Assembly (NCBI GenBank): GCA_021851875.1
Contig: JAJZQI010000001.1
Location: 83,511 to 147,510, forward strand
Length of the DNA: 64,000 nucleotides
Direction: 5' to 3'
Source of the DNA: Pseudomonadota bacterium
Lineage (GTDB): Bacteria > Pseudomonadota > Gammaproteobacteria > Burkholderiales > JAJZQI01
The position numbers and the translations under genes are program-made. Shown piece by piece: positions 24,783 through 54,500 of this stretch (position 1 is its first letter; every line of letters starts with the position of its first letter). The notes under the pieces are model-generated. The model was not told the DNA's origin and made no database searches. It saw only the letters and a list, made by a program, of their open reading frames with translations.

Positions 24783-26474
24783 TCAGTCCTGGCAGCGCCG
24801 TTGCACAAGAGCTTCAGGAGCGTGCAGGTGATAGCCCTGGGCAAAATCGATGCCCAGGCCGCGCACCGTAGCAAGCACACTTTCACTATGCACATGTTCG
24901 GCCACTGTCAGCATGCCGATTTCCTGGGCGATATGCCTGATCGAGCTGACCACGGCATGGCTGAATCGGTTGTTGCCCATTTCGAGGTCGCGAATGAGGG
25001 AACCGTCGATTTTAAGAATGTCGGCCGGCAGCGATTTCAGATAATTGAAAGAGGACATGCCGCTGCCAAAGTCGTCCAGCGCGCAGTGAAATCCCATGGA
25101 GCGCAATTGCAGCAGAAGGCGGGACGCTTCACCGATGTTGCGGATGGCTTCCGTTTCGGTAATTTCGAAACAGATATCGCGCGGGTTGATCTGGCTTTCT
25201 TCCAGGCATTGCTTGATGTAGTCGGACAGCTCATGATCGCACAAGGTGGTGCCCGACAGGTTGATAGTGTAGCAGGCGTCGGGATTGCCGCCCTGCTGCT
25301 TGAGGGACTGAAATAGCTCGCGAATGACCCAGCGATCGATGGCCGGCATCAGATTGTATTTTTCCGCAGCGGACAGAAAATGGCTGGGCGGGATGATGCG
25401 GCCCGGATTCTCTTCCAGCCGCAACAGGATTTCCCGGTGCGCACGGTGGTCGTCGCTTTCGTTGATCGGCACGATTTCCTGGAAGTAGAGGCGAAACAGA
25501 TTTTCGTCCAGCGCCCTTGTCAGTCGCGCGACCCAGGCCATTTCCTGGTGCGTGAGGGAGGAGAAGGCCTGTTCCTGGATCTGGATGTGTTGCGGCAAAT
25601 GTTTGGCGTCGTGGCAGGCTACGTCCGCTTGACTGAGTATGAGGCCGGCGCTTCCGTTGTCTTCCCGGATGGGGCAGCCGCCGATACGGACGCTGATCTC
25701 GAAGCGCTCCGTGTGCCAGACAAAGCGGTGCTGGGCCAATTCCTGGCGGATGCGTTGTGCCATTTCCCTGGCCGCCGCGTGTCCGCATTCGTGCAGGATG
25801 ATGCCAAACTCGTCGCTGCCAAGGCGGCCAATGGTATCCTGCGGTCGGGTTTGTCCACGCAGGCGCCGTGTCACTTCCTGCAGGAGTTGATCGCCGGCCA
25901 GATTGCCGCAGGTGTCGTTGATGACGCGGAACTGGTCCAGGTTCAGATGCAGCAGGGTGTGTTCCGCCTGGCGCATGCGGTTGTCGAGCAGATGGTTTTC
26001 CAGTTCCGTCAGAAAGGCCTGGCGATTGAGCAAGCCGGTCAGGCCGTCGTGGCGTGCCTGATAATGGATTTGTTCGAGCAGTTTATGCGACAGCGACATG
26101 TCCCGCATGATGGCGAGCACACGCGGACTGGGGCTGTCCGGCAATCTGCCGAAACGGATTTCCACTTGCCGGCTGACTTGCCGGGGCGGGTTGATGGAGC
26201 ATTCCAGCCGACAGGATTCGCCGTTCAGGGCAAAGTTGATTTGCTTGGCAAAATACTGGTTGTCATCCGCCAAGCCGAAGTCGGCCAGCGCCGGCATGCC
26301 GCTATCCAGGCCGAGCCACTGCTTGAGTGTGGCGTTGGCCGAATGGACGTTCATTTGATCGCAAACGACAAAGACCGCTTCATTGGACTCGGCAAAGAAG
26401 GTTTGCTGCACGACACGCTCAAGGGGGGGCGTGGTGGAAGGCGGACAGTCTTCAGCAATTTCAGAGGTTGTCAT
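24783..26474 (-). CDS. GGDEF-EAL protein with variant motifs
   Basis: The 563-residue cytosolic protein has a PAS-like N-terminus (about 20-130), a GGDEF domain (about 140-300) and an EAL domain (about 310-555). The cyclase signature reads RLGSDEFG instead of GGDEF, and the EAL signature reads EILLRL. Other EAL residues are present (ETEA, DDFGSGMSS, LKIDGSLI), but AEGVE is AEHVH. It may be a weak or regulatory enzyme, and cyclic-di-GMP hydrolysis is possible. It has no transmembrane helix. It is divergent from an HD-GYP gene. Confidence 0.88.
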   Translation of the reverse strand: MTTSEIAEDCPPSTTPPLERVVQQTFFAESNEAVFVVCDQMNVHSANATLKQWLGLDSGMPALADFGLADDNQYFAKQINFALNGESCRLECSINPPRQVSRQVEIRFGRLPDSPSPRVLAIMRDMSLSHKLLEQIHYQARHDGLTGLLNRQAFLTELENHLLDNRMRQAEHTLLHLNLDQFRVINDTCGNLAGDQLLQEVTRRLRGQTRPQDTIGRLGSDEFGIILHECGHAAAREMAQRIRQELAQHRFVWHTERFEISVRIGGCPIREDNGSAGLILSQADVACHDAKHLPQHIQIQEQAFSSLTHQEMAWVARLTRALDENLFRLYFQEIVPINESDDHRAHREILLRLEENPGRIIPPSHFLSAAEKYNLMPAIDRWVIRELFQSLKQQGGNPDACYTINLSGTTLCDHELSDYIKQCLEESQINPRDICFEITETEAIRNIGEASRLLLQLRSMGFHCALDDFGSGMSSFNYLKSLPADILKIDGSLIRDLEMGNNRFSHAVVSSIRHIAQEIGMLTVAEHVHSESVLATVRGLGIDFAQGYHLHAPEALVQRRCQD

Positions 26475-26728: not shown

Positions 26729-27949
26729 ATGATTAAAAAAATTGACGTAAACGATTTAACGCCGGGAATGTATATCCACGATCTGAACTGCGACTGGATG
26801 AATCATCCGTTCCTGCGCAACAGTTTCATGCTGAAGAACGGCGCGGAGTTGGGCAAAATTTTCGACGCCGGGGTGCATGAAGTCTATATCGACACCGACA
26901 AGGGATTGGATGTCGCGAATGCTCCGACCGAAGCGGAGATCCAGGCAAACCTGACGCAGGAAATGATCGCCCTTGCTGCATCCGAACCGGGCCGGATCGC
27001 ACAGGTTGCGCTGGAGGAAGAAATGGCTCGCGCCCGTAATATACGCGGGCAGGCGCACAAACTGGTACGTGACGTGATGAGCGATGTCCGGCTCGGCAAG
27101 GCAGTCCAGCTGGAGGCCGTTGAGGGCATGGTGGAAAACATCACCGGCTCCATCCTGCGCAACAGCGGGGCACTGGTTGGCCTATTGCGGATCAAGAGCA
27201 AGGATGATTACACCTTTTTGCATTCAGTCAGTGTCTGCGCCTTGATGGTGACTTTCGGCCGCTCCCTTGGACTGGATACCGCGCTCGTACGCCAAGCCGG
27301 ATTGGGTGGTTTGCTGCATGACGTGGGTAAAGCCAAGGTGCCCGACGAGATTCTCAATAAGCCCGGCCGGTTGACCGATGACGAGTTTGAAATCATTAAA
27401 CGGCATCCGGGCGATGGCCATGCTGTATTGCTGCAGACGCCCGGAGTGGGTGAGATTCCGCTGGACATCACCCGTCATCACCACGAGCGGATGGATGCGA
27501 GCGGCTATCCGGATAAATTGCCTGGCGATCAGATCAGCATGATGGCGCAAATGGCGGCGATTGTGGATGTTTACGATGCCATCACCGCGGACCGCTGTTA
27601 CCACAAAGGCATACCACCCACCGAAGCGCTGCGGAAAATCTGGGAGTGGAGCAAATTTCACTTCAATCCTCAGCTGGTGCAAGGCTTCATGCGTTGCGTG
27701 GGGATTTACCCCACGGGATCGCTGGTGCGTCTGGAGAGCGGTCGTCTGGCTGTGGTGATGCAGCAAAATGCGGTGAATATGCTGCAACCCAAAGTGAAGG
27801 CGATATTCAGCACCAAATCCAATGCCTACATTCCGCCTGTGATGATCGACCTATCCCGTTCCATGGGCGCGGGGGGAGCAGACGCCATCGTCGGCCACGA
27901 AGATCCGCTCAAGCTGGGCATCGATACCGAGCGCTTCTTCGCTGTCTGA
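26729..27949 (+). CDS. HD-GYP phosphodiesterase with N-terminal DUF3391
   Basis: The 406-residue protein carries an N-terminal DUF3391-like domain (KKIDVNDLTPGMYIHDLNCDWMNHPF) and a C-terminal HD-GYP domain (about 165-340). The metal and signature residues are intact: HDVGKAKVPDEIL, HHERMDASGYPDKLPG and DVYDAITADR. It is expected to hydrolyse c-di-GMP. The start has only a poor ribosome site (GAGGTTCAA) but gives the domain its complete N-terminus. It is divergent from the GGDEF-EAL gene. Confidence 0.93.
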   Translation: MIKKIDVNDLTPGMYIHDLNCDWMNHPFLRNSFMLKNGAELGKIFDAGVHEVYIDTDKGLDVANAPTEAEIQANLTQEMIALAASEPGRIAQVALEEEMARARNIRGQAHKLVRDVMSDVRLGKAVQLEAVEGMVENITGSILRNSGALVGLLRIKSKDDYTFLHSVSVCALMVTFGRSLGLDTALVRQAGLGGLLHDVGKAKVPDEILNKPGRLTDDEFEIIKRHPGDGHAVLLQTPGVGEIPLDITRHHHERMDASGYPDKLPGDQISMMAQMAAIVDVYDAITADRCYHKGIPPTEALRKIWEWSKFHFNPQLVQGFMRCVGIYPTGSLVRLESGRLAVVMQQNAVNMLQPKVKAIFSTKSNAYIPPVMIDLSRSMGAGGADAIVGHEDPLKLGIDTERFFAV

Positions 27950-44772: not shown

Positions 44773-46701
44773 ATGCCTTTGCTGCAACTCGTCCGTCTTG
44801 ACCTGGCATTTGGTCATGTTCCCTTGCTTGACCAGGTGGGACTGGTTGTCGAAGCCGGCGACCGTATCGGCCTGATCGGGCGCAATGGGGCGGGCAAATC
44901 CAGTCTGCTGAAAATCGCCGCCGGCCAGATCAAGCCCGATGACGGAACGGTATGGGTCCAACCGGGGACAAAACTGGCTTATGTGCCGCAGGAACCGCAG
45001 CTGAATGATGCCTTGCCGATTTTCGATGTGGTGTCGGACGGCTTGGGCGAGGCCAAGCGTGCACTGCTGGATTACCATGAAGCGGCCGTCAGGTTGGAGC
45101 AGGGCGATAGCGACCCCGCCTGGCTGGAACGGCTGCACCAGGCGGAAAACGCCCTGGCGGCCTGTGACGGCTGGAATGCCAAGTCGCGTGTTGAAACAGT
45201 GCTGACCCGCTTGGGCCTGGATGGCGACAAGGCGATCGCCGGTTTGTCGGGCGGGCAGAAAAAACGCGTTGCCCTGGCGCAGGCGCTGGTGGCGCAGCCG
45301 GACTTGCTGCTGCTGGACGAGCCGACCAACCATCTCGACATGGATTCCATTCAGTGGCTGGAAACATTGCTGCAGGAATTTCGCGGCAGTGTGCTGCTGA
45401 TCACTCATGACCGGCGCTTTCTCGATGCCGTCAGCAATCGGATTGTCGAGCTGGATCGGGGACAGTTGAGTGAATTTGCCGGCAATTTCTCCCAGTACCA
45501 GCAAAAGAAAGCCGAAATGCTCGCCGTCGAGGCGGATCATCAGGCCAAATTCGACAAGTTTCTGGCGCAGGAAGAGGTATGGATTCGTAAAGGGGTGGAA
45601 GCCCGGCGAACCCGTAACGAGGGACGGGTCAGACGACTCGAGCGGCTGCGGCTGGATCGGGCTGCCCGCCGTGAACTTGCTGGCGGGGTCAAGTTGGCGT
45701 TGGATGCGGGCGAACGTTCCGGCAAACTGGTGGCCGAGCTGACGCACGTGAGCATGAGTTATGCAGGCCGTCCGCTCATCCGGGATTTTTCCTGCCGTAT
45801 TCTGCGGGGCGACAAAATCGGTCTGATCGGCCCGAACGGTTCGGGCAAAAGCACGCTGCTCAAACTGATTCTGGGAGAAATTCGGCCCGAGAGCGGGATG
45901 GTTGAACAGGGGACCAAGCTGTCGATCGCCTATTTCGACCAGTTCCGCGCCCAGCTGGACGAGGAAGCCAGTTTGTCCGACGTGATCAGCCCGGGCTCGG
46001 AATGGGTGGAGATCAACGGCGAACGCAAACACGTCATCAGTTATCTGGAAGACTTCCTGTTTGCGCCCGCGCGGGCGCGTTCGCCGGTGAAGTCGCTGTC
46101 CGGCGGCGAACGCAACCGGCTGCTGCTGGCGCGGCTGTTCGCCAAACCGGCCAACGTGCTGGTGCTGGACGAACCGACCAACGATCTGGACATTGAAACG
46201 CTGGAAGTGCTCGAATCCCTGTTGCAGGACTACCACGGCACGGTGCTGATCGTGAGCCATGACCGGGCCTTTCTCGATAATGTCGTGACCCAGGTGTTTG
46301 CCTTCGAAGGCAATGGCAGCATCCGTGAATATGTCGGCGGCTACGATGACTGGATGAGGCAGCGTTCCGGCCAGCCCGAAGCGCCGGGAAAACCGGCTCA
46401 GGGCGCGAAAGTCGACAGCAAGGCGGCACGCGGCTCGCCGTCGCCGGCCAAAACCAGGCTCAGTTTCAACGAGACCCGCGAGTTGGCGGCGCTGCCGGAG
46501 CGAATTTCCGCGCTTGAGGCTGAACAGGCCGAGCTGACCGGTCGGTTGGGCGATCCCTTGCTGTACCAGAATGAAGCGGACAAGGTGGCCGGTCTGCAAG
46601 CGCGTTTTGAGGCAATTGAAATGGAATTGCTGACGTGCCTCGACCGCTGGGAGGTGCTGGAAGCAAAACAGTCGGCTGCCAAGGGCGGGAGCAGCAGTTA
46701 G
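44773..46701 (+). CDS. uup: ABC-F ATPase Uup-like
   Basis: The 642-residue soluble protein has two ATPase domains joined by a charged linker: Walker A LIGRNGAGKSSLLKI and LIGPNGSGKSTLLKL, signatures GLSGGQKKRVALAQA and SLSGGERNRLLLARL, and DEPTNHLDMDS/DEPTNDLDIET. The C-terminal 90 residues form a coiled coil (RISALEAEQAELTGRL) that binds DNA in E. coli Uup. ABC-F proteins act on ribosomes or on transposon excision. It converges on the GIDE gene; the stops overlap by four bases. Confidence 0.93.
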   Translation: MPLLQLVRLDLAFGHVPLLDQVGLVVEAGDRIGLIGRNGAGKSSLLKIAAGQIKPDDGTVWVQPGTKLAYVPQEPQLNDALPIFDVVSDGLGEAKRALLDYHEAAVRLEQGDSDPAWLERLHQAENALAACDGWNAKSRVETVLTRLGLDGDKAIAGLSGGQKKRVALAQALVAQPDLLLLDEPTNHLDMDSIQWLETLLQEFRGSVLLITHDRRFLDAVSNRIVELDRGQLSEFAGNFSQYQQKKAEMLAVEADHQAKFDKFLAQEEVWIRKGVEARRTRNEGRVRRLERLRLDRAARRELAGGVKLALDAGERSGKLVAELTHVSMSYAGRPLIRDFSCRILRGDKIGLIGPNGSGKSTLLKLILGEIRPESGMVEQGTKLSIAYFDQFRAQLDEEASLSDVISPGSEWVEINGERKHVISYLEDFLFAPARARSPVKSLSGGERNRLLLARLFAKPANVLVLDEPTNDLDIETLEVLESLLQDYHGTVLIVSHDRAFLDNVVTQVFAFEGNGSIREYVGGYDDWMRQRSGQPEAPGKPAQGAKVDSKAARGSPSPAKTRLSFNETRELAALPERISALEAEQAELTGRLGDPLLYQNEADKVAGLQARFEAIEMELLTCLDRWEVLEAKQSAAKGGSSS

Positions 46702-47588
46702 AACCATTCCCAGGCCGTGCCGACCAGCGCGATAAAAAACAGGCCAAGATGAATCCAGGCCCAGCGCCGGTAGCGTTTTGACAGGGCGTCGGGAGAGGTG
46801 TCGGCGATCAGGTACAGGCGCCCGTCCGCCGGTCGGCGTATTATTTCGACGCCGGTGTGCTGATACAGTTGCTGGTGTTGCTGCCGAACTTCATGGTAGG
46901 CGGCTTCGCGCGCGGCCTCCCATTCCTGCAGGTCGATCTGGCCATCGCCGTTGCGATCAAAGCGGTGCAGCAAGGAAGTGGAGTCGCGTTTCCATTCGGC
47001 CAGCAGCAGCGAGACATCCTGTTTGAGGTCGAGCTGCGTTGCCGCACCGCCCAGCGTACTGTGCTCGCCCAGAACATAGATTTTGTCGTTCGGCAGAAGC
47101 AGCCATTCCTGATAATGCAGATTGCCCTTTTGCCATTTTTCCTTGCGGCGGGTGAGCATTTCCGCTCCGCTCGGGTCAATCACTATACTGCCCGTGCCGT
47201 CGCGCAAAACGAACGTGTCGTCGCTCTGCCCCTGGTCTATCATGCGCTTCCGGTTGTTTTCCTCTTCCTCGATGCGGTAACGGAACCAAAGGCAGGGCAG
47301 GCCGGTGAGCTTGCTGTTGAGCGTCTCGCCGGGGAGAAACTCGCCGCGGCCGAATAATTCGACATAGCCCTGCGGGGCGGAGGCAACGCGGGAGGTCGGC
47401 AGATCGGCAACCAGCCGGTAGCGGCGGAAATTGGCATGCCAGGCCCACAGGCTGATAACGGTCAGCAGCCCGCCGGCGATGACCCAGCCTGAGCGGCTTT
47501 CCAGTCTGACGCCGATAAGCAGGATGAGCAGGCTGGCTGCCGAGGTGAGGATGTCGGACAGCTGCGAGCGTAGACCGAGCGCATTCAT
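46698..47588 (-). CDS. Membrane protein with GIDE-type domain and one EF-hand
   Basis: A 296-residue protein with two N-terminal helices (about 12-28, 34-50) and one near the C-terminus (WIHLGLFFIALVGTAW). The middle (about 65-190) looks like the GIDE domain known from mitochondrial E3 ligase MULAN: GYVELFGRGEFLPGETLNSKLTGLPCLWFRY, then VLRDGTGSIVIDP. Residues 211-222 form a canonical calcium EF-hand loop (DRNGDGQIDLQE). It is directly downstream of lemA (10 bases), a partnership seen in many bacteria. The GIDE call is inferred from pattern. Function unknown. Confidence 0.75.
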   Translation of the reverse strand: MNALGLRSQLSDILTSAASLLILLIGVRLESRSGWVIAGGLLTVISLWAWHANFRRYRLVADLPTSRVASAPQGYVELFGRGEFLPGETLNSKLTGLPCLWFRYRIEEEENNRKRMIDQGQSDDTFVLRDGTGSIVIDPSGAEMLTRRKEKWQKGNLHYQEWLLLPNDKIYVLGEHSTLGGAATQLDLKQDVSLLLAEWKRDSTSLLHRFDRNGDGQIDLQEWEAAREAAYHEVRQQHQQLYQHTGVEIIRRPADGRLYLIADTSPDALSKRYRRWAWIHLGLFFIALVGTAWEWF

Positions 47589-47598
47589 CAGTCAGCGG

Positions 47599-48171
47599 TC
47601 AGTTACCTTTGAACAGTTCGGCCAGATTCACATCGCGTTTCTCGGCGACGGAAAACTTCAGCAACGGCGCCGCCTGAAAATTCATCAGTCTGGCAACGAC
47701 GGCATCGGGAAATTGCTCTATCCGCACATTGTTGACGTTGACGCTTTCGTTGTAGAACTCGCGGCGATCTGCAATGGCGTTCTCCAGACCGGTGATACGG
47801 GATTGCAGGTGTTGCAGCGTCTCGTTGGATTTCAGTTCCGGATAGGCTTCCACCACCGCGAACAGCTGGCCGAGCCCGCTGCGCAAGAGGCCTTCCGCAT
47901 TGCCCAGTGCGGCAATGTCATGCGCCTCGCGCGCGGCAAAAACGGCGGAACGCGCCTGCATGACCTGTTCCAGCGTGGTTTTTTCAAATTGCATATGCTG
48001 CTTGCAGGTTTCCACCAGCTTCGGCAGCTCGTCGTGCCGCTGCTTCAGCAGCACATCAATATTTGCCCATGCCTTGGCCACGTTATGCTTGAGCGAAACC
48101 AGGTTGTTGTAGCTGACGATGGACCAGATCACGGCAACCAGCAGGACGGCCCCGAATACGATGTGCAACAT
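47599..48171 (-). CDS. lemA: LemA-family protein
   Basis: A 190-residue protein with one N-terminal membrane anchor (LHIVFGAVLLVAVIWSIVSY) and a long antiparallel helical bundle on the periplasmic or outer side: NNLVSLKHNVAKAWANIDVLLKQRHDELPKLVETC, then AYPELKSNETLQHLQSRITGLENAIADRREFYNESVNVNN. This matches LemA closely. The start 48171 follows GGAGATA. It precedes the GIDE/EF-hand gene, so both are likely one transcript. Confidence 0.93.
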   Translation of the reverse strand: MLHIVFGAVLLVAVIWSIVSYNNLVSLKHNVAKAWANIDVLLKQRHDELPKLVETCKQHMQFEKTTLEQVMQARSAVFAAREAHDIAALGNAEGLLRSGLGQLFAVVEAYPELKSNETLQHLQSRITGLENAIADRREFYNESVNVNNVRIEQFPDAVVARLMNFQAAPLLKFSVAEKRDVNLAELFKGN

Positions 48172-48228
48172 GCTATCTCCTTGTTTTGTTATGGCGGCAT
48201 GATGCCACACTTGTCCGCCCAGGTGGAG

Positions 48229-49416: not shown

Positions 49417-49599
49417 GGGTGACGGCTCTTTAATTCCAGGGGGATGTGCATGAAAATTGAATTTTATTTTATTGCTGCGCCTTGAGTGCAGTTAAATTTA
49501 CTGGCCGGTTAAATTTGGAATTTTTATCGATGCTGCTATTCTTCAAAAGAAATTCGACTGGATCGGTTGGCATCACACAATTCAGAGGAGGCAATAACA

Positions 49600-49905
49600 A
49601 TGCGCGTAAGCAAACAGCTTTCCCCCGATGGCAAACATTTGACAATCAAAGTGACCGGTCGCTTCGATTTCAGCTTGCATGAGGAATTTCGCAAGGCCTA
49701 CGAGGGCATGGGGCCGAACGGAACCTCTTTCCAAATCGATCTGGGCGGTACGGAGTATATCGACAGTGCCGCATGCGGCATGTTGCTCGTGTTCCGTGAC
49801 GCGGTCGGCGGCGATCACGCCGACATCTCCATCGTCAATGCCAGTCCGGTTATCAAGAAGACGCTGCAATTGCTGCAGTTCCAGCGGCTATTCAAAATTA
49901 CCTGA
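49600..49905 (+). CDS. STAS-domain anti-sigma-factor antagonist (HsbA-like)
   Basis: The 101-residue protein is a single STAS domain. The phosphorylatable serine in YIDSAACGMLLVF is residue 56, the same place as in SpoIIAA-type antagonists. It starts behind AGAGGAGG at ATG 49600; the frame upstream is not family-like. It would be phosphorylated by a HATPase kinase and dephosphorylated by a PP2C phosphatase; both activities are in the next gene. The unphosphorylated form binds an anti-sigma factor or diguanylate cyclase partner. Confidence 0.92.
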   Translation: MRVSKQLSPDGKHLTIKVTGRFDFSLHEEFRKAYEGMGPNGTSFQIDLGGTEYIDSAACGMLLVFRDAVGGDHADISIVNASPVIKKTLQLLQFQRLFKIT

Positions 49906-49973
49906 AACCTTTTGGCTACCTGCCGAGCAGCCTGAGTCAGTTTCGAATTTCACCGTGTTGAGGTATTTCATCC

Positions 49974-51758
49974 ATGCCTGAAGCGCCAGCGGCTCCGGGA
50001 ATGAAAATTTTTGTTGTCGATGATCAAGAAGTAAACCGCTATCTTCTTACGGTCATCCTCGGACAGCTAGGGCATGAGGTGCACGTTGCCGCGAACGGTG
50101 CCGAAGCGGTCGAGCAATTCATGCAAATCTCGCCCGATATGGTGTTCATGGATGTCATGATGCCGGTCATGGATGGTTACGAGGCCGCGACGCAGATACG
50201 CGAGCTGGTGGGCGACAAGTTTGTGCCCATACTTTTCATCACGGCATTGCGCGACGAGGCATCGCTGGTCAAGGCGCTGCAGCATGGCGGTCAGGATTTC
50301 ATCACCAAGCCGTTCAGCCACGCGATCCTGCGGGCCAAGATCGAAGCCATGCAGCAGCAGATGCGGATGTACGAGACTGTGCGCCTGCAACGTGACCAGC
50401 TGGCCCAATACCAGCAACGCATCAGTCATGAACATCAGGTGGCCGAACGGCTGTTCCAGAAAATTCTGCATAGCGGAGCGCTGGGGCACCCGGGTATTCG
50501 CTATGTCATCTCACCGCAGGCGATTTTCAACGGCGATATCCTGATTGCCGGTTTTCGCCCGACCGGTCAGCTCAATATTTTGCTGGGCGATTTTACCGGG
50601 CACGGCTTGTCGGCAGCCATCGGCACCATTCCCGTATCGGACATCTTCCAGGGCATGACGGCCAAGGGCTTCGCGATCTCCGAAATCGCCGTGGAAATCA
50701 ACAAGAAAATGCAGATGGTCCTGCCGCGCGGTCTCTTCCTTGCCGCCTGTCTGGTTGAAGTGTCTTTCAGCGAGGGCTTGATCCGCGTATGGAACGGCGG
50801 GGTGCCGGAAGGCATCGTATATGATGCAGCAACAGGTCAGATCCGTGCGCGTCTGCATGCCCGGCATTTTCCGCTTGGCCTGGTGGGGACGGAACAGTTC
50901 GACAAGTCGCTGGATATTTATCCCATCGGCCCCGCTGACCGTCTGTTGATGTTCACCGACGGCGTAACCGAAGCGGCCAATCCGGCGGGCGAGGTATTCG
51001 GCGATGCGCGGCTGATGGATGTTTTTCATCATGACGGCGGCGGCCGGGCCGACGATTTGCTGGACCGGTTGATTGAGGAGCTGGCGGCTTTTCGTGGACA
51101 TCAGACGCAAAGCGATGATTTTACCTTGGCCGAATTCCGTCTGGCGGAACTGGAAAGACTACCCGATACATCCGCCATCAGGACATCGCACGGCCTGAGC
51201 CAGCGGGCCTTTCCCCATGCCCAGCGCGACTGGACGATGGATTTCGATTTTCAGCATCGGGTTCTGCGGGTTTTGGATCCTTTGCCCTTGCTCATGCAAA
51301 TGTTGATGGAGATTCAGCAGCTGCATAGCCATAAGGAGCAAATATACCTGATTCTGGCCGAGCTTTATTCCAATGCGCTTGAGCACGGCGTTCTGGCGTT
51401 GAAGTCCGCCGCCAAAAATGGGGCTGACGGGTTTGAGCGCTACTATTCTGCCCGCGAACACGCCTTGGCCAGCTTGCAAACGGGTTTTGTGCGTTTCCAC
51501 TTTGAGTCGCTGCAAAGCGACACGGTGTCGAAACTGATTGTCGAAATTGAGGACAGCGGAGAGGGGTTCGACGTGAACCGCTGTATTCAGTCGGAGGCGG
51601 ACCATACGGAATACCATGGACGCGGCCTGCCGCTGCTGCGAGCGTTGTGCGAGTCGGTACAGTTCAATGACAAGGGCAATAAGGTAACAGCCGTTTATTG
51701 CTGGCGTTGCGGTGATACCGGTAACGCCGGCCAGGCTGGTTCAGGTTTATTTCCTTGA
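49974..51758 (+). CDS. Response regulator with PP2C phosphatase and HATPase kinase domains (HsbR-like)
   Basis: The 594-residue protein has a receiver (residues 9-125; Asp60 in VFMDVMMPVMDG and Lys112 in FITKPF), a coiled linker (125-165), a SpoIIE-type PP2C phosphatase (about 180-385, with LLGDFTGHGLSAA and FTDGVTEAAN) and a C-terminal SpoIIAB/RsbW-like HATPase (about 430-580; N-box AELYSNALEHG, DSGEGFD). It can thus both phosphorylate and dephosphorylate the upstream STAS protein, as in HsbR of Pseudomonas. Input is a phosphoryl signal from an unknown histidine kinase. It lies 68 bases after the STAS gene. Confidence 0.9.
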   Translation: MPEAPAAPGMKIFVVDDQEVNRYLLTVILGQLGHEVHVAANGAEAVEQFMQISPDMVFMDVMMPVMDGYEAATQIRELVGDKFVPILFITALRDEASLVKALQHGGQDFITKPFSHAILRAKIEAMQQQMRMYETVRLQRDQLAQYQQRISHEHQVAERLFQKILHSGALGHPGIRYVISPQAIFNGDILIAGFRPTGQLNILLGDFTGHGLSAAIGTIPVSDIFQGMTAKGFAISEIAVEINKKMQMVLPRGLFLAACLVEVSFSEGLIRVWNGGVPEGIVYDAATGQIRARLHARHFPLGLVGTEQFDKSLDIYPIGPADRLLMFTDGVTEAANPAGEVFGDARLMDVFHHDGGGRADDLLDRLIEELAAFRGHQTQSDDFTLAEFRLAELERLPDTSAIRTSHGLSQRAFPHAQRDWTMDFDFQHRVLRVLDPLPLLMQMLMEIQQLHSHKEQIYLILAELYSNALEHGVLALKSAAKNGADGFERYYSAREHALASLQTGFVRFHFESLQSDTVSKLIVEIEDSGEGFDVNRCIQSEADHTEYHGRGLPLLRALCESVQFNDKGNKVTAVYCWRCGDTGNAGQAGSGLFP

Positions 51759-51926
51759 TGGATTTGGGTGCGATTTGAAAAGTTTTATGATGGAAGATAA
51801 ACGCATTTTGCATTAAAAAATTCTGGTCTATGATTATTGGAAACAAGCGGTGGATTGCAGAATATTATTACAATTCGGCCCTGATGCAGGCTGTAGGGGG
51901 CGAATGCCGCAACATGCAGGAGTTCT

Positions 51927-54500
51927 ATGCCGACACCATTGCGTGTGCTCATTGCCGTTGATGTTCCTGCCGACACGGAGCTGCTCAAGCAGAACCTGTC
52001 GTTGGGAACGTATGACCTGCGTTGCCAGCATGTAAACGATGCCGTCGAGCTGGAGCTGGCGCTGGAGCATATGTGGGATGTGTTGTTGCTGGAAGATCGT
52101 TTCGCTGGCAGAGACAGCCTGGATGTGCTGCAGGCCATCCGTCAGAAGGGGGTGCAAACCCCTGTCATCATGCTTTCCAATATCCCGAGCGAGGAACAGG
52201 CCGTCAGAGCCATGAAGTCCGGCGCGCAGGACTATGTGTCTTTGAGCAATACCATTCGTATCGTGGCGATCATCGAGCGGGAAATGCAGGAAGCCGCTGC
52301 ACGGCACGAGCGTCAGCTGGGGGCGGAGGTGGATCAGCTGATCCAGCGGGTGGACCTGGGCATTTTGCGCGGAGCCAGTCTGCGCAGCGTGCTGGTGGGG
52401 TTGTGCGAAGGGTTGTCGAGCATTTTTGATGCCGACATGGTATGGATCGTTCTGCAAGACCAGTATGACGTGCCGCAGGTGAAAGCCTGGTCCGGCCGGG
52501 GCGGTATGGGCGGTGGGACGCCGCAGCCGGCCATGTCCAAATGGATGGCGGACAAGGATTATCTCGCCAGCCTGCTGAATCACAACGAGCTGTCGCTGGT
52601 GCGCCTGAATGAGCCGGATTCCCCGGCCTGGGGCATCATGGCGACCGGTTCCGGCTTTGAGTCGGCCATCATCATTCCGCTTTCGGCGGACCATTCACTG
52701 GACGGAGCGGTGTGTCTGTTCAGTCAGAATGAAGAGATGATCAACTCGGCAACGGTGTTGCAGTTCGAGAAGATCGGCCGGCAGGCGTCATTGGCCATCC
52801 GCATGGCCGAGGATCAGATGAAGATGCGCTTGCAGGGCGCGGCCATGGATTCTGCCGTCAACGCGATTTTCATGACCGATCCGGGCGGCAGGATCTGCTG
52901 GGTGAATGAATCGCTGGTCAAGTTAAGCGGTTATGCGCGTGACGAGTTGATCAGTGCCGAGTCCCAGGTGATTCACGGTTCGCTGCGGCAGACGCACTGG
53001 AACGAAATGATCCGCCACCAATTGCTGCAGGGCGAAACCTGGAGAGGCCAGGTCAGCAACCGGCGTAAGAACGGCAGCTATTACAGCGTGAATGAGACAA
53101 TCACGCCCATTCGCAACGAGGCCGGCTCGGTCTCGCATCTGGTTTACATTCTCGAAGATATCACCAGCCAGCTCGAAGCCAAGCAGAAGCTCTATCAGAT
53201 CACCAATTTCGATGCGTTGACGGGTTTGCCAAACCGCAGCCTGTTTCGCGACCGGGTGGAGCAGGCGGTAGGCCATGCGGGGCCGGGTTGCCGGAAAATA
53301 GCCGTGCTGCTGCTCGATTTGGATCGCTTCAAAAATATCAACGACACGCTGGGGCATGAGGTCGGCGATTCGCTCCTGTGGGAAGTGTCCGAGCGTTTGC
53401 GCACCGTGGTGCAGGAGCCCAATGCCTTGAGTCGGCAGGGCGGGGACGAGTTCGGCGTGCTGTTGCCGTGTCCCAGCAACGCCGAGGCGGTGGCGATCAT
53501 GGCGCGCCGGCTGATCGAGGCAATGGCGGCACCGTTCGTGTTGTCCGCGCGCGAGGTGTTCGTCACCCCCAGTATTGGCATCGCCATGTATCCGGACGAT
53601 GGGCAGAATGCCGACGAGCTGATTCGTAATGCCGATACGGCCATGTACCGGGCCAAGGAAGAGGGGCGCAATACCTTCCAGTTTTTTACCGCGGACATGA
53701 ATGCGGTCATGTACGAGCGGCTGAATATTGAAACGCAGTTGCGGCGGGTGCTCGATCGCAATGAGCTGGCCCTGGCTTTTCAGCCTAAAGCCAGCCTCCT
53801 GAGCCGCCAGTTTTACGGCATGGAGGTGCTGGTCAGGTGGCAGTCGCATGAGCTGGGGCCGGTTTCGCCGGAACTGTTTATTCCTATTGCCGAGGAGACC
53901 GGCAGCATCATCCAGATTGGCGAGTGGGTACTGCTGGAGGCGTGCCGCGCCGGTCGCCGCTGGCTGGAGCAGGGCACGTTGCGGGGGCGGGTGGCGGTCA
54001 ACGTGTCCGGCCGCCAGTTCGATCAGCACGATCTGCCGCAAATGGTCGACCGGGCGCTCGCGGAAACGGGGTTTCCGGCTGACAAGCTGGAGCTGGAGGT
54101 AACCGAAAGCACCATTATTCGCGACCCGGAGCTGGCTATTGCCGTGCTGGAAGCGCTGGGACGCCGCGGAATCAGCATCGCGGTGGATGATTTCGGCACG
54201 GGCTACTCCAGCTTGAATTATCTCAAGCGCTTGCCGATCCATACGCTGAAAATCGACCGTTCCTTCGTCAATGACATCGGCGCGGATGCCGATGGCGAGT
54301 CAATTGTGCGGGCGATTGTGGCGATGGCCAAAAGCCTGGGGTTGGCCGTGGTGGCGGAAGGGGTCGAAACAGAGCAGCAGGCGGCCTTTTTGACCGAGCT
54401 GGGCTGCGAGTTCATTCAGGGGTATCTCTTCAGCAAGCCGCTGTTGCCAAAAGACATGAATGCGTGGCTCAAATCGCGTCAGCCGATTTTGCAAAACTGA
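51927..54500 (+). CDS. Degenerate receiver-GAF-PAS-GGDEF-EAL protein
   Basis: The 857-residue cytosolic protein has an N-terminal receiver-like domain (1-125), GAF (about 150-290), PAS (about 300-420), GGDEF (425-590) and EAL (600-850). GGDEF is intact (SRQGGDEFGVLLP). The EAL start reads EVLVRW, with the rest conserved (DDFGTGYSSLNYLKRLP, TLKIDRSF, VAEGVETEQQ). The receiver has Glu56 where the phosphoacceptor Asp should be and no lysine in the DYVSLSN segment. It starts behind AGGAG, 168 bases after the PP2C gene, and is the probable c-di-GMP output of the module. Confidence 0.9.
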   Translation: MPTPLRVLIAVDVPADTELLKQNLSLGTYDLRCQHVNDAVELELALEHMWDVLLLEDRFAGRDSLDVLQAIRQKGVQTPVIMLSNIPSEEQAVRAMKSGAQDYVSLSNTIRIVAIIEREMQEAAARHERQLGAEVDQLIQRVDLGILRGASLRSVLVGLCEGLSSIFDADMVWIVLQDQYDVPQVKAWSGRGGMGGGTPQPAMSKWMADKDYLASLLNHNELSLVRLNEPDSPAWGIMATGSGFESAIIIPLSADHSLDGAVCLFSQNEEMINSATVLQFEKIGRQASLAIRMAEDQMKMRLQGAAMDSAVNAIFMTDPGGRICWVNESLVKLSGYARDELISAESQVIHGSLRQTHWNEMIRHQLLQGETWRGQVSNRRKNGSYYSVNETITPIRNEAGSVSHLVYILEDITSQLEAKQKLYQITNFDALTGLPNRSLFRDRVEQAVGHAGPGCRKIAVLLLDLDRFKNINDTLGHEVGDSLLWEVSERLRTVVQEPNALSRQGGDEFGVLLPCPSNAEAVAIMARRLIEAMAAPFVLSAREVFVTPSIGIAMYPDDGQNADELIRNADTAMYRAKEEGRNTFQFFTADMNAVMYERLNIETQLRRVLDRNELALAFQPKASLLSRQFYGMEVLVRWQSHELGPVSPELFIPIAEETGSIIQIGEWVLLEACRAGRRWLEQGTLRGRVAVNVSGRQFDQHDLPQMVDRALAETGFPADKLELEVTESTIIRDPELAIAVLEALGRRGISIAVDDFGTGYSSLNYLKRLPIHTLKIDRSFVNDIGADADGESIVRAIVAMAKSLGLAVVAEGVETEQQAAFLTELGCEFIQGYLFSKPLLPKDMNAWLKSRQPILQN

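Follow-up and report, generated by a model that had tools for sequence, protein, structure and literature searches.

Gene organization of the locus

The window, by which we mean the whole 64-kb stretch of DNA that was analysed, carries three genes on the + strand in a single order, encoding a STAS protein, a receiver-PP2C-HATPase protein (the regulator) and a GGDEF-EAL protein, with gaps of 68 and 168 bp. The features discussed below are the following:

49515..49542, + strand: promoter-like TTGGAA-16-TATTCT upstream of the STAS gene (by eye, alignment with locus L040)
49600..49905, + strand: STAS-domain phospho-acceptor protein, 101 aa, Ser56 (Pfam, alignment)
49974..51758, + strand: response regulator, receiver-PP2C/SpoIIE-HATPase_c_2, 594 aa (Pfam, alignment)
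51810..51838, + strand: conserved island holding TATGAT, before the GGDEF-EAL gene (28 of 29 bases, by eye)
51927..54500, + strand: putative pseudo-receiver - GAF-like - PAS - GGDEF - EAL protein, 857 aa (Pfam, alignment, model)

Upstream of the trio, genes for an iron alcohol dehydrogenase (Fe-ADH), LemA and a GIDE-like protein lie on the opposite strand, and the flanking genes scanned on this side also include ABC-F. Downstream we observed pcnB, folK and a deoxynucleoside-kinase (dNK) gene, followed by probable panB and panC genes (assigned by eye from the translations). The STAS/regulator pair itself sits between the Fe-ADH gene and pcnB. Among the flanking genes scanned around the trio we found no Hpt gene, no flagellar or cheR gene, no che gene and no sigma or anti-sigma gene. 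The source assembly comprises 2.68 Mb in 52 contigs. Of the relatives found, a congener (genome G001, locus L040) is the closest; it has the same trio and flanks, and the identity between the two genomes is 94% for the STAS protein, 83% for the regulator, 83% for the GGDEF-EAL protein and 93% for PcnB. Purifying selection acts on each of the three genes, with dN/dS values of 0.024, 0.089 and 0.085 for the STAS, regulator and GGDEF-EAL genes, respectively, which are crude values from a two-genome comparison with dS near saturation.

The STAS protein and its regulator

The STAS reading frame starts with the ATG at 49600 behind AGAGGAGG, a good ribosome-binding site, and its stop lies at 49905. 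Pfam, run on 49603-49905, matched STAS_2 (1.5e-10) and STAS (1.3e-08). Counted from the ATG at 49600, residue 56 is the serine of a D-S-A-A-C-G-M motif, in agreement with the Ser56 named in the first-pass annotation, and the corresponding column holds a serine in all 76 of the 76 aligned STAS partners. HsbA of Pseudomonas aeruginosa is described as using Ser56 as well (PMC6482189). The STAS protein is 71% identical to that of the related locus L041, and a search of solved structures returned a single weak match for it.

The regulator (49974-51758) matched Response_reg (1.1e-26), SpoIIE/PP2C (1.2e-36) and HATPase_c_2 (4.8e-09), all above the cut-offs, so that the domain composition expected for the second gene was recovered in full. 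By aligning 93 regulators we observed that the receiver keeps its acceptor D60, the PP2C domain its metal-site residues D188, D206, D329 and D381/D382, and the HATPase domain its ATP-site residues E463, N467, D527, G529, G531 and G551; these are the roles that the corresponding residues have in the families. Among the columns in which at least 84 of the 93 sequences agree, the regulator deviates only at F13, Q107, Q128 and A296. Its identity to the regulator of L041 is 48%. Among the 60 matches listed, no solved structure covered the whole protein, and the matches were confined to the receiver with the exception of 3eq2, which corresponds to residues 12-337. In a plasmid search no match covered 80% of the regulator. 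The matching stretch of a Vibrio record from this search carries no annotation.

The arrangement is that of the HsbR/CrsR type, with receiver, PP2C and HATPase domains in a single protein whose catalytic residues are intact and with a STAS gene, carrying the conserved serine, immediately upstream. Since both the phosphatase and the kinase motifs are complete, the second protein would hold both antagonistic activities toward the STAS protein, which supports what the first-pass annotation had proposed; the antagonism and its direction are transferred by analogy from HsbR and CrsR. Because the landmark residues of the regulator, the invariant Ser56 and the order with the STAS gene upstream are all kept, we consider a partner switch made up of these two proteins and acting on Ser56 very likely.

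Homologous pairs and their genomic context

We searched genomes of the same class for homologues of the regulator and found them in 80 of 370 genomes (E <= 1e-60). The search gave 96 rows, of which 74 were taken with their flanks, 2 belong to the window's own genome and 20 were left out (19 stop short of the kinase domain, and one, in G268, has no receiver). Added to these were 20 regions from earlier searches, four extra regions (one of them already included as L041) and L059-L062, while L063-L065, which match the receiver only, were left out. From the total of 101 loci we dropped L059, which lies on the same contig as L040, and eight loci had no three-domain regulator reading frame (L044, L045, L133, L178, L187, L188, L189 and L191; L044 had been taken for a different STAS gene). 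The final alignment holds 93 three-domain regulators, one per locus, the window included.

In 75 of the 93 modules the regulator gene is immediately preceded by a STAS gene. We scored a che context where at least one of the four genes upstream is labelled CheB or MCP and shares the strand of the module, and this is the case for 57 of the 93 modules, often in the order cheB, an MCP-like gene of about 400 aa, STAS gene, regulator gene. In L115 a cheD gene precedes cheB, and in L041 the ~400-aa gene gave a match to MCPsignal. Stage 1 of the F7 chemosensory clusters has been described with the order cheR-cheD-cheB-mcpA-like-anti-sigma antagonist-serine phosphatase (PMC7184735). In a maximum-likelihood tree (quick method, SH-aLRT), which was built without HsbR, CrsR or V. 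cholerae sequences, the window and L040 group with L041 and L155, both of which show the order MCP-STAS-regulator, in a set of four rows (97). This set is nested in a set of ten (99), seven of which have a che context and three of which do not. Locus L136, which has the Hsb arrangement (fliG, flagellar-type ATPase, fliJ, cheR, STAS, regulator, Hpt), falls outside the set of ten.

The window pair therefore groups in the tree with pairs from clusters of the F7 stage-1 order, a class which we assigned to the relatives' clusters by gene order and not by CheA, but it is not itself inside a che cluster. On the basis of this tree position and of the MCP-STAS-regulator order of the nearest relatives, the best description of it appears to be a pair of the F7 type located outside any chemosensory cluster. 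The own genome contains a second pair (L039), which is preceded by an MCP gene, two genes that were not identified and cheB. That the window pair is a recent copy of this second pair was ruled out, as the two are 35% identical and fall in separate parts of the tree. Two homologues of the ~400-aa MCP were also found elsewhere in the own genome, one with 36% identity over residues 75-403 (contig C21) and one with 32% over residues 31-348 (contig C11).

The GGDEF-EAL protein carries a degenerate receiver

The third protein (51927-54500) matched EAL (8.4e-70), GGDEF (1.2e-47) and PAS_9 (1.4e-14), and so the GGDEF-EAL protein stated for this position was found as described. A match to GAF_2 stayed below the Pfam cut-off (20.5 versus 28.6 bits). 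The predicted structure shows helices and strands in a GAF-like succession at about residues 152-275, and the best fold matches of the model include bacteriophytochromes and a dual-sensor kinase, which we take to contain GAF and PAS domains; the model is modest (mean pLDDT 67.8, alignment of three sequences) and was applied to the GAF question only.

At the N-terminus we found a receiver (Response_reg, 1.6e-08, 35.1 bits, cut-off 30.2 bits). It was compared with 19 loci taken from the best matches of the N-terminal search, giving 20 aligned rows, 19 of which have a letter at positions 11 and 56. Residue 11 is V in the window and in L040, whereas all 19 related rows have E or D there; residue 56 is E in both but D in 19 of 19 rows, and residue 106 is L in the window and M in L040 but K in 20 of 20 rows; D12 and S84 are kept. 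The complete set of acidic pocket, acceptor Asp and Lys that marks a phosphorylatable receiver is thus not found in this protein. As neither genome retains the acceptor Asp or the conserved Lys, and one residue of the acidic pocket is substituted in both as well, the domain is, judged by its residues, a pseudo-receiver. A receiver that does not undergo the usual phosphorylation would leave the enzyme in need of another input. Of all parts of the protein, the receiver is also the one that is conserved least between the two genomes (receiver 74%, linker and GAF-like part 79%, PAS 81%, EAL 88%, GGDEF 89% identity). The first-pass annotation had stated that, compared with the Hsb pathway, the output protein adds GAF, PAS and EAL domains, which is correct with respect to HsbD but overlooked this degenerate receiver.

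Signature motifs were found for both catalytic domains (GGDEF at 505, EVLVR at 633, NVSGRQF at 692, EVTE at 724 and DDFGTG at 754), and the L040 homologue also has GGDEF, EVLVRW, NVSGRQF and DDFGTGYS. By these motifs both domains look catalytically intact and are predicted to be active, and the enzyme probably both makes and breaks c-di-GMP. The RxxD inhibitory site was not found at the place expected from the usual spacing, which reads E-P-N-A. The top five curated models for the protein are all phosphodiesterases (DibA first, then PRK10060, DosP, the Tlr1612 family and GepA), each matched below its cut-off.

Searching 300 genomes from the same order with the full-length protein (E <= 1e-150, three scored candidates in each) gave matches in 37 of them, but no full-length relatives beyond the own genome and G001; the other matches never reach residues 1-128, and the best of them (G428) covers residues 129-845 at 40%. 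The first 300 residues matched in 58 of 369 genomes of the class (E <= 1e-12, with scores for six candidates from each genome). Among the matches listed, only the window's own gene was matched over the receiver and the GAF-like part together, whereas the others end by residue 176 and cover the receiver and little else.

Association of the pair with c-di-GMP enzymes

The module had been described in the first-pass annotation as built to drive c-di-GMP output. Our data do not support this: among the genomes examined, the GGDEF-EAL gene was found next to the pair in only two genomes of one genus, the 91 other pairs show no enrichment of GGDEF genes at their sides, and the nearest relatives of the pair lie in clusters of the F7 stage-1 order. 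When the window, L040 and L059 are left out, GGDEF genes make up 2 of 169 adjacent genes, 3 of 172 second neighbours and 8 of 920 genes farther away (Fisher P = 0.26), and adding the window's case gives P = 0.24 for adjacent genes. Among the 89 modules with a visible downstream gene, the next gene on the same strand encodes a GGDEF domain in three (the window, L040 and L179), of which L179 is an independent case whose REC-GGDEF gene overlaps by 7 bp. In 21 of the 89 modules the next gene on the same strand encodes Hpt or receiver domains without GGDEF. The trio as a conserved operon type was rejected on this comparison (3 versus 21 of 89) together with the Fisher P of 0.26. Since the own genome contains 40 GGDEF domains, and another GGDEF-EAL gene is located within the window, adjacency by chance is likely enough.

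The spacer before the third gene weakens the claim as well. In the otherwise diverged 168-bp spacer the TATGAT island before the GGDEF-EAL gene is conserved between the window and L040, which suggests that this gene may have its own promoter at 51810-51838. L040 does not share the -35 match TTTGCA (51807-51812), and the promoter scan gave 4 sites versus a mean of 3.4 in shuffles, i.e. no excess. As the terminator scan found no terminator-like site on the + strand of the 168-bp spacer, read-through from the pair into the GGDEF-EAL gene is possible too. Upstream of the STAS gene, the stretch with TTGGAA-16-TATTCT is conserved in the congener; it has 8 of 12 consensus bases and lies below the threshold of the promoter scan.

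Control of the GGDEF-EAL enzyme by the switch is nevertheless plausible. In its favour are the published cases in which STAS or STAS-related proteins control diguanylate cyclases (HsbA-HsbD, BgrV-BgrR and SiaC-SiaD; PMC5085249, PMC8457831) and the retention of the trio, on one strand, in the congener under purifying selection. Adjacency and the degenerate receiver are the two observations that point, tentatively, to the enzyme as the target, and c-di-GMP is our best single guess for the output, if one held with less than even confidence.

Alternative explanations

The pair might instead still serve a chemosensory system in trans, with CheA as input and an output on a receptor or another array protein, or it might act on a different partner, the GGDEF-EAL gene being an unrelated neighbour. 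The che context of most homologous modules, often with the ~400-aa MCP-like gene at their side, is consistent with this, as are the che cluster and the two MCP homologues of the own genome and the missing enrichment of GGDEF genes near such pairs. However, no che gene was found among the flanks scanned and the che cluster of the own genome already contains a pair itself, so we regard this explanation as possible but somewhat unlikely.

A switch acting on sigma factors, in which RpoS is sequestered by the HATPase domain or FlgM by the STAS protein and the enzyme is independent, is in our view rather unlikely. The anti-sigma domains of HsbR and CrsR have been reported to bind RpoS and HsbA to bind FlgM, and these regulators have the same three kinds of domain (PMC6482189, PMC5085249). 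The own genome encodes both RpoS (442 bits, cut-off 378.7) and FlgM (61 bits, cut-off 25). On the other hand, the flanks scanned contain no sigma or anti-sigma gene, the pair of L039 could fill the RpoS/FlgM role, and the closest relatives of the window pair are found in che clusters and not in the Hsb-like locus. That the regulator and the enzyme answer one phosphorelay through the receivers which both proteins carry, without contact to the STAS protein, is very improbable, given the replaced residues in the receiver of the enzyme.

Proposed mechanism and implications

For HsbR, the unphosphorylated form has been described as having its kinase switched on and the phosphorylated form its phosphatase (PMC5085249). 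In the same manner, the HATPase domain of the unphosphorylated regulator would phosphorylate Ser56 of the STAS protein, and a kinase or phosphotransfer protein encoded elsewhere in the genome would phosphorylate D60, upon which the PP2C domain would remove the phosphate from Ser56. One form of the STAS protein would then leave the regulator and bind an output protein, for which the neighbouring pseudo-receiver-GAF-PAS-GGDEF-EAL enzyme is the most likely single candidate. Because both catalytic domains look intact and the five best models all represent phosphodiesterases, a shift in phosphodiesterase activity would be a more likely effect of binding than a simple rise in cyclase activity. We thus tentatively favour an F7-type pair outside a che cluster with the GGDEF-EAL enzyme as its most likely output, although this reading falls short of an even chance. 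The more specific version, in which a switch of the F7 kind was re-wired to a bifunctional GGDEF-EAL enzyme whose pseudo-receiver serves as docking site for the STAS protein and not as phosphate acceptor, is speculative and, taken as a whole, unlikely.

STAS partner switches, including those acting on diguanylate cyclases, are already known (Hsb, Bgr and the related Sia). If the link holds, what would be new is the coupling of an F7-type pair to a GGDEF-EAL enzyme that carries a pseudo-receiver, an arrangement for which we found no description in the titles and abstract openings of the open PMC papers listed. A STAS/phosphatase-kinase pair is present in many chemosensory clusters of the class (57 of the 93 modules studied), and the available part of the paper on the F7 stages gives no output for it (PMC7184735). 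A free-standing pair beside an enzyme without phospho-input of its own offers an opening to probe one possible output, and a true re-wiring would hint at what the pairs in F7 clusters can do. If the link fails, what remains is a partner switch of the ordinary kind that has the enzyme gene beside it by chance.

Comparison with known systems

Compared with the stage-1 F7 clusters, the window shows the same pair in the same order, and its nearest relatives in the tree follow an MCP gene, but the window pair has no che genes beside it (PMC7184735). Chemotaxis cluster III of V. cholerae is listed, in the accessible part of its description, without STAS or phosphatase genes (PMC11940527).

The first-pass annotation had likened the locus to Hsb of P. 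aeruginosa, and this resemblance holds in part. As in HptB-HsbR-HsbA(-HsbD), receiver, phosphatase and kinase/anti-sigma domain are united in one protein directed at a STAS serine, Ser56, with a c-di-GMP enzyme nearby, and phosphorylated HsbA is reported to bind the diguanylate cyclase HsbD (PMC5085249, PMC6482189). Unlike Hsb, the flanks scanned hold no Hpt, flagellar or cheR gene, so that neither an hptB gene in the operon nor the flagellar context that L136 displays was found; moreover, the relatives of the pair lie in clusters of the F7 stage-1 order, and L136 is outside the supported set of the tree that holds the window pair. HsbD is reported, in the sections available, without a receiver, whereas the enzyme in the window appears to have a pseudo-receiver, a GAF-like domain, PAS and EAL (PMC5085249, PMC6482189).

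With CrsR-CrsA of S. oneidensis the pair shares a phosphatase and an anti-sigma/kinase domain in one protein and a STAS-type antagonist (PMC6482189), and RpoS is encoded in the window's genome too. In contrast to CrsR-CrsA, a c-di-GMP enzyme adjoins the pair, and binding of RpoS is only conjectural in the window. In SiaABCD of P. aeruginosa and BgrSTUWV-BgrR of Sinorhizobium meliloti a phosphorylation-controlled STAS or STAS-related protein likewise controls a diguanylate cyclase (SiaC/SiaD, BgrV/BgrR), but the Sia phosphatase and kinase are separate proteins, a DUF1987 protein replaces the STAS protein, and neither cyclase is described in the available text as a GGDEF-EAL protein with a pseudo-receiver (PMC8457831).

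GGDEF genes beside STAS/regulator pairs

The second pair of a STAS gene and a receiver-PP2C-HATPase regulator gene in the window's own genome closes a che cluster (L039:6528-10374, on contig C21) and is convergent with an Hpt-REC-REC-GGDEF gene. We observed the same neighbour beside the pair in a genome of a different family (G046, L045:2546-6308), where a stop lies in the frame of the regulator ahead of its kinase part. The c-di-GMP association of the pair through the Hpt-REC-REC-GGDEF gene thus spans two families, which the window's trio (STAS, regulator and GGDEF-EAL gene) does not. At a further locus (L179:8627-11582) a che cluster ends in the order STAS, regulator and REC-GGDEF, with a 7-bp overlap between the regulator and REC-GGDEF genes; here a GGDEF gene lies directly 3' of the pair, a case independent of the window's trio. 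Within the same family, L180 shows the order STAS, regulator, TerB and GGDEF-EAL.

Variant arrangements and a distant homologue

Three genomes of one family (L125, L128 and L130) carry a rearranged form of the pair, in which the regulator is followed by a second PP2C-like protein (565 aa) and then by the STAS gene. Outside the Proteobacteria, a receiver-PP2C-HATPase protein with 40% identity was found in Candidatus Polarisedimenticolaceae (L060, Acidobacteriota), and no STAS gene was recognised adjoining its gene.

Other genes in the window

24783-26474, minus strand, further GGDEF-EAL gene
26729-27949, plus strand, DUF3391-HD gene (HD-GYP-like)
46698-48210, minus strand, LemA gene adjoining a GIDE-domain (E3 ubiquitin ligase-like) gene

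The GIDE-domain gene also contains one EF-hand-like motif, scoring below the Pfam cut-off. As both the GGDEF-EAL and the DUF3391-HD gene listed here lie within the window, c-di-GMP genes are dense in it.
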